Positions 2,146-6,484 of a stretch of DNA of 52,881 bases are shown here, one piece after another. The stretch is from Candidatus Peribacteria bacterium RIFOXYB1_FULL_54_35 (GTDB taxonomy: Bacteria > Patescibacteriota > Gracilibacteria > Peribacterales > Peribacteraceae), in NCBI GenBank assembly GCA_001787755.1, contig MFYJ01000004.1, forward strand, positions 906 to 53,786, written 5' to 3'. Numbering within the stretch: position 1 is the first letter of the stretch; each line of letters opens with the position of its first letter. Under the pieces are notes generated by a model that was not told the DNA's origin, did not search any database, and saw only the letters and a program-made list of their open reading frames with translations. Both the position numbers and the translations under genes were made by a program.

Positions 2146-2781
2146 CTATACGCCGAATGTGTGCAGCGTATTCGTAAAGGCCTCCTTTGGGATTCGCAGC
2201 GACGCATCCATAAGAGCCGATCGTATGCCCTCTGTGACCTCGGGGATTTGGCTGACCGTGAAGACGGCAATGTGGAGTGTTCCTTCGCATTGTGTAAGCA
2301 CGATACGGCGAACGGAGGTTTCTGCCGTGCGGATGAGATCTGTGATGTGTCCGAGGTTTAGAGGGGTATCGCCTGTTTCTATACTGGCTTCAATGCGGTG
2401 TGGCATATCTCCGTGGAGCGCATCTGCCATATTGAGCTCTTCCATGGTATCGCCGTACTCGCACTGCGCTATGTGGACGTCTGCATTCGAAAGAGCGGCA
2501 ACGACGCCCCGTAGGGAGCCTTCTTTGGCCGTTTCAACCTCGAATGAGAGCACCATCCTCCCGTTTGCGTCTGTATTCGGGAGCAGGGAGCCTGTCACAT
2601 TATTCCGATCGGCAATGCCGTCTGCCACTCTGTCGAGATCGGTATCCGGTCCTGCGGTGACGACAAAATGGCTCAGAAGAACAAAGGAAGAAGTTTGCAG
2701 ATTGTAGTAGACTACGTCCTGAGCGCAAAGAGGGCTCCTGGCATATTTCTGCGCTTTTCCGCATTTTCCCACTGTTCCCAT
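2146..2781 (-). CDS. hypothetical protein
   Basis: This 211-residue reading frame has protein-like composition (mixed acidic, basic and aliphatic residues), while the overlapping plus frame is Ser/Arg-rich and looks like a shadow. I do not recognise a family. After a weakly hydrophobic segment (SFVLLSHFVV) the rest is soluble, with no signal peptide or clear motif. The only ATG upstream of the conserved-looking body is at 2781; a GTG at 2772 is the alternative. The ATG shares two bases with the start of the divergent lipoprotein gene at 2780, which is unusual and makes the exact start uncertain. The stop abuts the preceding plus-strand gene. Confidence 0.5.
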   Translation of the reverse strand: MGTVGKCGKAQKYARSPLCAQDVVYYNLQTSSFVLLSHFVVTAGPDTDLDRVADGIADRNNVTGSLLPNTDANGRMVLSFEVETAKEGSLRGVVAALSNADVHIAQCEYGDTMEELNMADALHGDMPHRIEASIETGDTPLNLGHITDLIRTAETSVRRIVLTQCEGTLHIAVFTVSQIPEVTEGIRSALMDASLRIPKEAFTNTLHTFGV

Positions 2782-3310
2782 GAGAAAACTTCTCCCTGTG
2801 CTCCTGATGGTTTCCGGTATTCTTCTTTCGGCTTGTGGAAAGGAACCGGAGGAGTTTCCGGCCGGGACGACGAGGGAGGATTGGACTGAGCAGATTGACA
2901 TCGCCATGCCGGATGGGAAAGAGATTACGGACAGGGTCCACGGCAAAGAGCTCTGGTTTGCCATTGCTCCCATCTATGCCGTGAGCGAGGAGCCTGCAAA
3001 CGGCGTGACGCAGGCCCATTTCTTTGAAGACGGGACGTACCTGCACAATCTGAAGGTGAATGTGACGCGGAATGAGGAGAGTTTCTTCTACGAAGGGTGG
3101 GTGGCGAAATCCGGGGATCCCTCCGAATGGGTGAGCCTGGGACATTTGAGCAGCCACTTCGGGGATGCGCGGCACGGCGTGCAGTTCAGGGAGAAGCAGG
3201 CTCTGCGCGGGTATCTGCAGGTGAAAGTGACGAGGGAACGGGATGACGGTGACCCTTTGCCGGGGTTGCTCCTTGCCGAGGGGACACTGAAAGTGACGGA
3301 ACGACCGTGA
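2780..3310 (+). CDS. lipoprotein of unknown function
   Basis: The 176-residue product begins with a lipoprotein signal peptide: MRKLL, a hydrophobic core and the lipobox LSAC with Cys at about residue 20. Lgt, encoded at 30.9 kb, would modify such a cysteine. The mature part is soluble and hydrophilic with many Glu, Asp and Arg residues; residues ~60-170 look like a small beta-rich domain (KELWFAIAPIYAV, ASGE-poor). I do not recognise a named family. The start is fixed by the signal peptide. No convincing Shine-Dalgarno or promoter was seen, and the start overlaps the divergent gene on the other strand. Confidence 0.75.
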   Translation: MRKLLPVLLMVSGILLSACGKEPEEFPAGTTREDWTEQIDIAMPDGKEITDRVHGKELWFAIAPIYAVSEEPANGVTQAHFFEDGTYLHNLKVNVTRNEESFFYEGWVAKSGDPSEWVSLGHLSSHFGDARHGVQFREKQALRGYLQVKVTRERDDGDPLPGLLLAEGTLKVTERP

Positions 3311-3927: not shown

Positions 3928-5550
3928 TTAGCCGTGATCTATCTGCCCATTCATTTCGTGCTTGAGGATGCAGTAATGGATGGCGTCGCACATGGCCTCC
4001 GTATTCGCTGCAAGTTCGTCTGTACCCACACCGGTGGTGTAGAACCTCTCCCCATAATAGGAGAATTCAACAACAACCTGCACTTCTGATGCTGTTCCTT
4101 CGCCGGAAGGGAGATTGGTTGCTCTGTAGTTCTCCAGCTTTAAATCCTGCATAACCGGAAATCTTTCACCAAGTGCTTTTGCAAAGGCAATGCTCATGGC
4201 ATCCACTGTTCCATCGTCGCTATGTCCGTTGAATTTCGTTGCTTCCGCGTCTCCGTTGACCTTGATCCAGAGGGTAGCGATCGCTCCACTGTCTGAAGCG
4301 TCCACGAATTTATGCCTTGTAACCACAAAGCGGGGTTCAAACATCTGTAGTTCACGCAGGCAGAGCAGCAGAAACGATGCTTCGGCATCACGGTACCGGA
4401 TACCCCTCGATTCCTCTCTTTTGAGGATTGCGAGCATTCTTGCCCTATTTTCAGGGCGGGAAAGGATCTCGGCTGCCTCTGGAGAAATTGCCTTCGTCCT
4501 TGCCAGGAATTCATCGATATTGCCTAGTCCGGATACCTTGGAGAGAATGCTCCTGCTGCGGTTTCCTACGGCTTCTGCTGGCATGAACTGATTCGCCAAC
4601 GGGTCGCGTTGATTCCCCCGGACATGCTGCCCCGCTTTGTGCGTAAAGGCGTCCGCTCCGACGAATGGAGCGTTATCAGGCACTCTGACCTGAAGAATTT
4701 CTGCCACTTCGTGGGCTGTGGGGGTAATGGCGGCCATGTTCGGCACTGTTCGGTAGCCGCGTCGCCACAAGTTCGGCAGTACCTTGCTATGGTCAACATT
4801 TGCCACCCGCTCGCCGTATCCAAGCCATGTTCCCTGGTAGTGCCTTGCGCCCGCTTCTATGCCTGCAAGCGTGTTTGCTGTCGCTAAATCTGCATCATCA
4901 TGCATGTGGAGGCCTACAACGATGCCATTTCCGATTGCCTGGATTGTCGCACGGGTAATTTCGTGTACTTCTTCCGGGAATGTGCCACCCTTCGTATCGC
5001 ACAGTACCACTCTCCGTACTCCGGCTTCTATAGCGGTTCTCAGCGCTTCCAGTGCATACTCGGGATCCTGCTTGTATCCGTCGAAGTAATGTTCAGCATC
5101 GAATGTGAGATCCTCTCTGCCCTGACTGCGTAGAAAGCCGAATGTATCGCGTATCATTGCGAGATTCTCCGCTGCGCTCACCCTCAGTACTGCCTCAGCC
5201 TGCTGCCGGGATGATTTCCCGACTATCACCAGAGCCGGTGCGCCCGATTCCAAGAGGGCCCTGAGACCGGGATCGTCTTCTGCTGCTGTGTCACCCCGTC
5301 GAGTGGCGCCGAAAGCGGCAAGTATGGTATGGGTCAGTTCTTGAGGATTCTCTCTGAAGTACGCAAATACCGCTCTGTCTGCGTCGCTGGACTCAGGGAA
5401 CCCCGCTTCTGTGTAGTCTATGCCAAATGCGTCGTTTACCCTGGCGAGCCTGATTCTCTGATATGCGGTCAGATTGAGGAGCGGTGATTGATCCTGGTCT
5501 CTCGGGGTGTCCAGGATTTCGATGGCCTTTGGGTCAGCGTCAAGTTTCAT
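3928..5550 (-). CDS. cimA: (R)-citramalate synthase
   Basis: The 540-residue product matches the citramalate synthase/HMGL-like family in length and order: a DRE-TIM catalytic barrel (residues ~8-290) followed by a LeuA-type allosteric dimer domain (~390-530). Citramalate synthase condenses pyruvate and acetyl-CoA, opening the threonine-independent route to isoleucine. Visible motifs are the metal-binding HMH at 215-217, GYGERVANVD at 244-253 and AAFGATRRG at 78-86, the last typical of CimA rather than LeuA. The usual TLRDGEQ appears here as TPRDQDQ (15-21); Arg17 and Asp18 are kept but the Gly-Glu is changed. No Shine-Dalgarno precedes the ATG. The upstream isoleucine attenuator independently supports CimA over 2-isopropylmalate synthase. 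No other branched-chain gene lies in the window. Confidence 0.85.
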   Translation of the reverse strand: MKLDADPKAIEILDTPRDQDQSPLLNLTAYQRIRLARVNDAFGIDYTEAGFPESSDADRAVFAYFRENPQELTHTILAAFGATRRGDTAAEDDPGLRALLESGAPALVIVGKSSRQQAEAVLRVSAAENLAMIRDTFGFLRSQGREDLTFDAEHYFDGYKQDPEYALEALRTAIEAGVRRVVLCDTKGGTFPEEVHEITRATIQAIGNGIVVGLHMHDDADLATANTLAGIEAGARHYQGTWLGYGERVANVDHSKVLPNLWRRGYRTVPNMAAITPTAHEVAEILQVRVPDNAPFVGADAFTHKAGQHVRGNQRDPLANQFMPAEAVGNRSRSILSKVSGLGNIDEFLARTKAISPEAAEILSRPENRARMLAILKREESRGIRYRDAEASFLLLCLRELQMFEPRFVVTRHKFVDASDSGAIATLWIKVNGDAEATKFNGHSDDGTVDAMSIAFAKALGERFPVMQDLKLENYRATNLPSGEGTASEVQVVVEFSYYGERFYTTGVGTDELAANTEAMCDAIHYCILKHEMNGQIDHG

Positions 5551-5573
5551 GAGGTGAAATGGTGATTACATAC

Positions 5574-5600
5574 AAAAAACCCCGGCTTACGTGCCCGGGG
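5574..5600 (-). terminator. attenuator terminator upstream of cimA
   Basis: On the minus strand CCCCGG (5600-5595) pairs with CCGGGG (5585-5580), and a C/G pair extends the stem past one bulged base. Six T residues follow directly (5579-5574). This is a complete intrinsic terminator located between the leader peptide and cimA. Confidence 0.85.
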
Positions 5601-5668
5601 TGAAGTGGCTTTTTTACGTAGCAGCTACCTCCTCACGCCGAGCGCGGGAATAATGATGATGCTGCTAC
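5593..5668 (-). promoter_or_regulatory. isoleucine attenuator: alternative RNA pairings
   Basis: Four pairing segments can be read in the leader RNA. GTAGCAGC (5668-5661) pairs with GCTGCTAC (5625-5618), bracketing the Ile codons. GCTCGGCGTGAGG (5643-5631) pairs with CTTCACCCCGGGC (5605-5593) over 12 of 13 positions, counting two G-U pairs. This second pairing captures the 5' arm of the terminator and so is an antiterminator. A ribosome stalled at the Ile codons leaves the antiterminator arm free; one that reaches the stop codon covers it and lets the terminator form. This is the classical ilv/trp attenuation logic, inferred from pairing alone. Confidence 0.8.
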
Positions 5669-5687
5669 TAATGCTTAAAACCTGCAT
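5625..5687 (-). CDS. isoleucine-rich attenuator leader peptide
   Basis: The 20-codon frame encodes MQVLSISSSIIIIPALGVRR and stops at TAG. Four Ile codons in a row (ATC ATC ATT ATT), with a fifth Ile at residue 6, sit just before the antiterminator arm, as in ilv-operon leader peptides. It has no Shine-Dalgarno; the -10 box ends 11 nt before its ATG, so the transcript would begin within a few bases of the start codon. Its role would be to sense charged tRNA-Ile and control read-through into cimA. Confidence 0.85.
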   Translation of the reverse strand: MQVLSISSSIIIIPALGVRR

Positions 5688-5698
5688 TTGTTGGGGAA

Positions 5699-5726
5699 AT
5701 CCTACCCCTCCGCAGGAGGGAGTCAA
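5699..5726 (-). promoter_or_regulatory. cimA leader promoter with palindrome in spacer
   Basis: TTGACT (5726-5721) and TAGGAT (5704-5699) are spaced 16 bp apart. The spacer itself is an inverted repeat, CCCTCC-TGC-GGAGGG (5720-5706), which could be an operator. Transcription would start about 4-5 nt before the leader peptide ATG. Confidence 0.65.
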
Positions 5727-5776: not shown

Positions 5777-6484
5777 ATGAAATCCTACCGTTACTACGAC
5801 ATAGTCATGGCCGCCTTCGTTGCCACGCTGCTTGTGAGCAACATTTCCTCTGCGGCGAAAATTGTCGATTTTAGGATCTCTCTCTTCACCATTCCACTTG
5901 TGTTCGATGCGGGGACGCTGCTTTTCCCTTTGAGCTACATTTTCGGAGATGTTCTCACTGAGGTGTACGGCTACGCCAGGGCCCGCAGGGTCATCTGGGT
6001 GGGATTTGTCTGTGCGGCGGTCATGAGCATCTATGTTCATCTCGTTGGGCGCATGCCGGGGGAGGCTGCGTGGCAGCAGTACGCAGGAGATGAGGCGTTT
6101 GCTGCCATCCTTGGCGGCGTGGGCAGTGGGGGCATCATCATTGCCAGTCTTGCTGCATACTTCTGCGGGGAATTCAGCAATTCTTTTGTGCTGGCCAAGA
6201 TGAAAGTGACCATGCGGGGCCGCAGGCTCTGGGTGCGCACCATCGGATCCACTCTCGTGGGACAGGCAGTGGACACGGTTGCATTCGTTTTCATCGCGTC
6301 TGCGTTTGGCGTTTTCCCCTGGGCTATTGCAGTGAGCCTGATTGTTGCGAATTTTCTCTTCAAAGTCTCCATCGAGGTGCTCTTCACCCCTCTCACATAC
6401 AGGATGGTCGGTTTCCTCAAGCACGCCGAGCACGAGGATTACTTTGACAGGGGGACAAACTTCAATCCGTTTCATCTGAGATAG
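5777..6484 (+). CDS. queuosine precursor transporter (YhhQ/VUT family)
   Basis: The 235-residue product has six to seven hydrophobic helices and matches the YhhQ (DUF165, VUT) family of membrane carriers, which import queuosine precursors such as preQ0/preQ1 for tRNA modification. Family-typical stretches are LLVSNISSAAK near the N-terminus, FPLSYIFGDVLTEVYGY at about 56-72 and GQAVDT near 163. The ATG at 5777 is preceded by GAGG six bases upstream and by TATACA at 5760-5765. It is divergent from the cimA leader, with about 50 bp between the two promoter areas. Import of a precursor would fit a reduced genome that does not make queuosine, but the rest of the pathway is not visible here. Confidence 0.88.
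   Translation: MKSYRYYDIVMAAFVATLLVSNISSAAKIVDFRISLFTIPLVFDAGTLLFPLSYIFGDVLTEVYGYARARRVIWVGFVCAAVMSIYVHLVGRMPGEAAWQQYAGDEAFAAILGGVGSGGIIIASLAAYFCGEFSNSFVLAKMKVTMRGRRLWVRTIGSTLVGQAVDTVAFVFIASAFGVFPWAIAVSLIVANFLFKVSIEVLFTPLTYRMVGFLKHAEHEDYFDRGTNFNPFHLR

Follow-up and report, generated by a model that had tools for sequence, protein, structure and literature searches.

Ribosome-mediated transcription attenuators of the ilv/leu/thr/trp type are described from Proteobacteria and Actinobacteria (for example, C. glutamicum ilvBNC, PMC11857589; survey in PMC1262725). They combine a leader peptide rich in the sensed amino acid, competing protector, antiterminator and terminator stems, and a downstream gene in amino acid biosynthesis. 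These features are shared by the locus described here, which lies on a stretch of 52,881 nucleotides ("the window", contig MFYJ01000004.1) from Candidatus Peribacteria bacterium RIFOXYB1_FULL_54_35. The differences are that it belongs to a different phylum, that it controls one lone first-step enzyme in a genome without the pathway, that the gene behind a conserved leader is exchanged between close relatives, and that the leader start codon lies at the inferred transcript start. Leaderless short ORFs with a run of cysteine codons are reported to act as attenuators in mycobacteria, a different phylum (Canestrari et al. 2020, cited in PMC13236596). The E. coli pheST attenuator is an amino acid attenuator on aminoacyl-tRNA synthetase genes, as seen here for threonyl- and isoleucyl-tRNA synthetase in one genome of the phylum (G134), although in the latter case the leaders are inferred to be leaderless and the synthetases are other ones. 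Finally, the regulated protein is closest to citramalate synthase CimA (TIGR00977), with a full-length match and kept catalytic motifs, but it scores below the curated cut-off and its genome has no downstream pathway enzymes. The mechanism of attenuation is known, and what is new is the phylum, the probably leaderless isoleucine leader, and the swapped lone enzymes in apparent auxotrophs.

An isoleucine attenuator upstream of a citramalate synthase-like gene

An initial annotation, made from the sequence alone, had proposed a complete isoleucine attenuator upstream of cimA, and every element it named was found in place on the minus strand. The leader ORF (5687-5625) runs from ATG at 5687-5685 to TAG at 5627-5625 and encodes the 20-residue peptide MQVLSISSSIIIIPALGVRR, with four consecutive Ile codons (ATC ATC ATT ATT) at 5660-5649 and a fifth at 5672-5670. 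Segment 1, GTAGCAGC (5668-5661), pairs with GCTGCTAC (5625-5618) to form the protector stem. Segment 2, GCTCGGCGTGAGG (5643-5631), is the 5' strand of the antiterminator and pairs with segment 3, CTTCACCCCGGGC (5605-5593), at 12 of 13 positions if G-U pairs are allowed. As segment 3 overlaps the 5' arm of the intrinsic terminator (5600-5580; CCCCGG at 5600-5595, nine nucleotides, CCGGGG at 5585-5580, followed by T6 at 5579-5574), the two structures exclude each other. A perfect Shine-Dalgarno-like AGGAGG sits at the leader stop codon (GTGAGGAGGTAG, 5625-5636) and is conserved in form in relatives, whereas cimA itself has no such site; it may hold the terminating ribosome on segment 2. Folding of 5570-5690 gave -41.6 kcal/mol (z -3.2), better than any of 200 shuffles. 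Individually, the terminator reached -13.2 kcal/mol, the antiterminator -23.7 (z -2.3) and the leader stem -27.5 (z -2.8). No Rfam family, T-box or other riboswitch, reached its threshold at this site, the only matches in the window being two tRNAs.

The regulated gene, 3928-5550(-), starts 23 nt after the T run and encodes 540 aa. Its best family is TIGR00977, with 344.8 bits against a curated cut-off of 450, while an orthologue in a genome of the same family (G061) reached 494.7 bits. The catalytic and metal-binding motifs (RD, FDAEHxFD, HxH, GER, HKxGxH) are kept. The divergent neighbor at 5777-6484(+) is a queuosine precursor transporter (TIGR00697, 100 bits), the start of which lies 90 bp from the leader ATG. 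The convergent flank, kept across the family, comprises an O-antigen-ligase-like protein with TPRs (7-2145, +) and a small protein (2780-3310, +) that looks like a lipoprotein in relatives.

Conservation of the element within the family

A protein search of 144 related genomes identified CimA relatives over most of the query in 11 further genomes of the same family, about 38-42% identical over the full-length matches. In one of them (G053, contig C16), cimA is split into two overlapping frames (290 and 327 aa), which is either an assembly error or a decaying copy. Each of the 12 genes, including the one in the window, has its own short Ile-rich leader directly upstream, a GC-rich hairpin with a T run, and the gene start about 20-40 nt further on. 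Other families of the class have CimA without this leader. A covariance model built from the 12 leaders found the element in 33 of 74 family genomes at E < 1e-4, with Ile codons in the leader ORF each time, which is far more than chance. Loss of the Ile codons or of the pairing in relatives had been named beforehand as evidence against an attenuator, and the relatives keep both. Weak model hits in G025, G071, G027:C121, G587 and G595 were not used, those in G071, G027:C121, G587 and G595 also lacking a convincing leader.

RNAalifold on a MAFFT alignment gave only a four-pair structure because the terminators misalign, and therefore a model fitted to the antiterminator and per-sequence folding were used instead. 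On 36 aligned matches, 12 of 14 antiterminator pairs show changes on both sides, more than in any of 500 shuffles, and 81% of cells are paired against 34-60% when the partner is slid. This alignment was, however, fitted to the antiterminator model, and the 12 founding sequences match it by construction. Folding each of the 33 leaders on its own does not share this bias and gave the same picture: the terminator, followed by a T run, had a mean of -11.4 kcal/mol, the antiterminator had a mean z of -2.6 (below -2 in 26 leaders, above -2 in seven), 86% of the terminator's 5' arm was taken up by the antiterminator, and a protector stem across the Ile codons was predicted in 30 of 33.

In addition, a feature absent from the initial annotation was identified. 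In all 33 leaders a sigma-70-like promoter ends 6-12 nt before the leader start codon (in two cases GTG), nearly always in the arrangement TTGAC(A/T/G)-16-TAnnnT, and a purine-rich string was flagged in only two. In the window, the -35 element TTGACT (5726-5721) and the -10 element TAGGAT (5704-5699) are separated by 16 nt and form the only site of that strict form. The transcript start is thus inferred near 5690-5693, with a 5' UTR of about 3-6 nt, and the leader peptide is probably translated from a leaderless transcript. This rests on promoter consensus only, but its uniformity is strong.

Absence of the remaining isoleucine pathway

The initial annotation had further concluded that the cell makes isoleucine, and this is not supported. 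Family searches showed that the genome carrying the window (97.9% complete) lacks IlvC, IlvD, LeuC/aconitase, LeuB and a PF01063 branched-chain aminotransferase. The first four models each found their gene in all 14 control genomes, and PF01063 did so in 13. Among the 74 family genomes, IlvC over the cut-off and IlvD occur only in the same single genome (G051), which is without the switch, aconitase/LeuC in three, and LeuB in two. Of the 12 genomes with cimA under the switch only one (G015) has LeuC, LeuD and LeuB, and none has IlvC or IlvD. A weak 29-bit IlvC match in the genome of the window, and similar ones in most family genomes, covers only about 96 residues of a ~430 aa frame, probably an NAD-binding domain of another enzyme, and was not counted. 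A class-I fumarase-type hydratase, which could have offered another route for citramalate, was looked for and is also absent. So, the organism carries a switch for isoleucine but by all signs cannot make it, and cimA is a lone first enzyme.

Exchange of the gene under the switch

The gene under the switch is exchanged between relatives at one syntenic site. Among the 33 genomes, the leader precedes CimA (12), threonine ammonia-lyase (IlvA; 10, of which four were checked by HMM and the others by sequence similarity, with a small ORF in between in G067, G008, G065 and G055), 2-isopropylmalate-synthase-like (LeuA-like) enzymes (3), or unknown small proteins (8). Those of the small proteins that were scanned gave no usable Pfam match, although two are related to each other (G034 and G066). 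Six genera contain more than one kind. In pairwise DNA comparisons, the leader and the downstream flank match while the gene between does not; for example, G061 against G067 matches from -66 to +105 of the leader at 85%, shows no match through the gene, and resumes near +1880. In G055 (contig C18) two attenuators occur in tandem, and the C-terminal codons of a 154 aa ORF (GTIIPASSTA) appear to serve as the leader of the second, before ilvA. The threonine ammonia-lyases under the switch (loci L168, L173, L185 and others) barely match or do not match the regulatory domain PF00585, so isoleucine feedback may be altered. The CimA proteins of the family form one branch in a tree of 99, although the tree search was short and several branches are long. 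Coding pairs have dN/dS of 0.10-0.28 where not saturated, which indicates purifying selection and thus working genes.

Related leaders elsewhere in the phylum

In a same-class genome of another family (G099), MTARQIIISIITPSLRGSR precedes a 618 aa synthase with the same N-terminal motif as LeuA-type enzymes. A second model, run on 380 genomes of the phylum, found leaders with codons matching the gene: MHIRLNTTTTTTARRVV and MLKIILTTSTTTSP before threonyl-tRNA synthetase (two genomes), MNTTRNASAIIIPRP before isoleucyl-tRNA synthetase, MKLSWLSSATYYYPPLGGG, with Tyr codons, before phenylalanine 4-monooxygenase, and MNFIRNSIIISVIIIAA before threonine synthase. The synthetase and monooxygenase leaders lie in G134 (C2:8971-9070, C1:192439-192535 and C2:96925-97038) and in G664 (locus L220). 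The E-values are modest (2e-4 to 4e-3 per genome), but the match of codon and gene is independent evidence, and suggests that attenuation is a common amino acid sensor in this phylum. Related leaders rich in Val and Leu codons (e.g., MQSVRVVVSLVLVAVPRIGA) precede a small unknown ORF and a UvrD/PcrA-like helicase (L199, G013:C8; L200, G015:C2; L204, G014:C3; L206, G008:C91). Moreover, Ile-run leaders with terminators occur in another family of the phylum (f49; L217, L221, L222, L224, L226, L227) before unknown genes, some of about 100 aa.

Mechanism and possible roles

The observation in the initial annotation was thus borne out in full. Its interpretation holds only in part: a complete ribosome-mediated Ile attenuator controlling a lone citramalate-synthase-type gene in what is very probably a CPR genome is supported (the genome is 1.56 Mb, and a same-class genome, G137, shows 16 in-frame TGA in this gene family, as expected of Gracilibacteria-type recoding), whereas isoleucine synthesis by the cell is not, and neither is the claim that the leader predicts the role of one fixed enzyme, because the same leader controls other enzymes and unknown genes in sister genomes.

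We consider with high confidence, which applies to the mechanism only, that the element is a ribosome-mediated transcription attenuator sensing charged tRNA-Ile. In this model, RNA polymerase starts a few bases before the leader ATG and the ribosome loads on the (near-)leaderless 5' end. With enough isoleucine, the ribosome would run to the stop codon and cover segment 2, and the terminator, formed by segments 3 and 4, would end transcription before cimA. When charged tRNA-Ile is short, the ribosome would stall on the four Ile codons and cover segment 1 only, so that segment 2 pairs with segment 3, the terminator cannot form and cimA is transcribed. If the leader is not translated, the 1:2 stem would favor termination. 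The parts, their conservation, mutual exclusivity and covariation, the promoter position, the absence of the rest of the pathway and the swapped genes come directly from sequence and comparison, while the transcript start, the stalling behavior, the rise of read-through on isoleucine starvation and the activity of the enzyme, including that on pyruvate and acetyl-CoA, are inferred without expression data. An ordinary terminator next to a coincidental Ile run, for which only the general frequency of terminators between genes would speak, is refuted by the conservation of the codons and of the alternative pairing.

The purpose of the switch is less certain. Our leading but unproven reading, held tentatively, is that during isoleucine shortage the auxotroph makes and releases a first intermediate such as citramalate or 2-oxobutanoate, which an attached partner cell with the rest of the pathway turns into isoleucine, some of which comes back. 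The first enzyme is kept and placed under an Ile-shortage switch while the pathway is absent, and non-homologous enzymes (IlvA, CimA) that feed the same point replace each other at one site. In one genus (g14), G015 has CimA plus LeuC, LeuD and LeuB, a route that ends at 2-oxobutanoate, while its sister genomes have IlvA, which makes 2-oxobutanoate directly. The purifying selection also agrees with this reading, engineered E. coli accumulates citramalate above 80 g/l (PMC5882075), and Peribacteria, including Ca. Peribacter riflensis, are inferred to be symbionts that depend on outside amino acids (PMC4736985). Caution is nevertheless needed, since no exporter and no host were identified, eight genomes have unknown small genes under the switch, and three have LeuA-like enzymes, which feed leucine rather than isoleucine.

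It is possible, though rather unlikely, that the product is used inside the cell by an unrecognized route with divergent or non-orthologous downstream enzymes, so that isoleucine or another needed compound is made after all. Many CPR proteins are unannotated and the CimA family member here is divergent; however, IlvC, IlvD, LeuC and LeuB are each easily recognized and were all found in the controls, and several independent replacements would be needed. Somewhat less likely, the enzyme might have a shifted substrate or role (for example, another 2-oxo acid plus acetyl-CoA), with isoleucine as only a starvation signal. The score below the cut-off and the unrelated small proteins that can take the same place would fit, but the closest family is clearly CimA, the motifs are intact, the G061 orthologue is above the cut-off, and 25 of 33 genes under the switch are first-step branched-chain amino acid enzymes. 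A functionless relic of a lost isoleucine operon, as the patchy distribution and the split cimA of G053 could suggest, is disfavored by the dN/dS values, by the retention of switch and enzyme together over great divergence, and by the repeated replacement by functionally related enzymes.

A broader reading, doubtful on present evidence but not excluded, is that CPR symbionts use the leaderless isoleucine attenuator as a fixed control site into which different first-step branched-chain amino acid enzymes are slotted, making on starvation precursors that drive the partner cell to produce isoleucine. In this view, leaderless leader ORFs read by stalled ribosomes would be the general amino acid sensor of this phylum and would also control aminoacyl-tRNA synthetases.

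How CPR bacteria, most of them uncultured, sense nutrients is barely known, and in the literature searched we found no paper that joins CPR with attenuation and leader peptides. A switch readable from sequence tells directly which amino acid the cell monitors. That auxotrophs keep, and repeatedly exchange, a lone first enzyme under predicted isoleucine control makes metabolic exchange with a partner testable, and the phylum-wide set of putative leaderless attenuators gives functional predictions for unknown genes.
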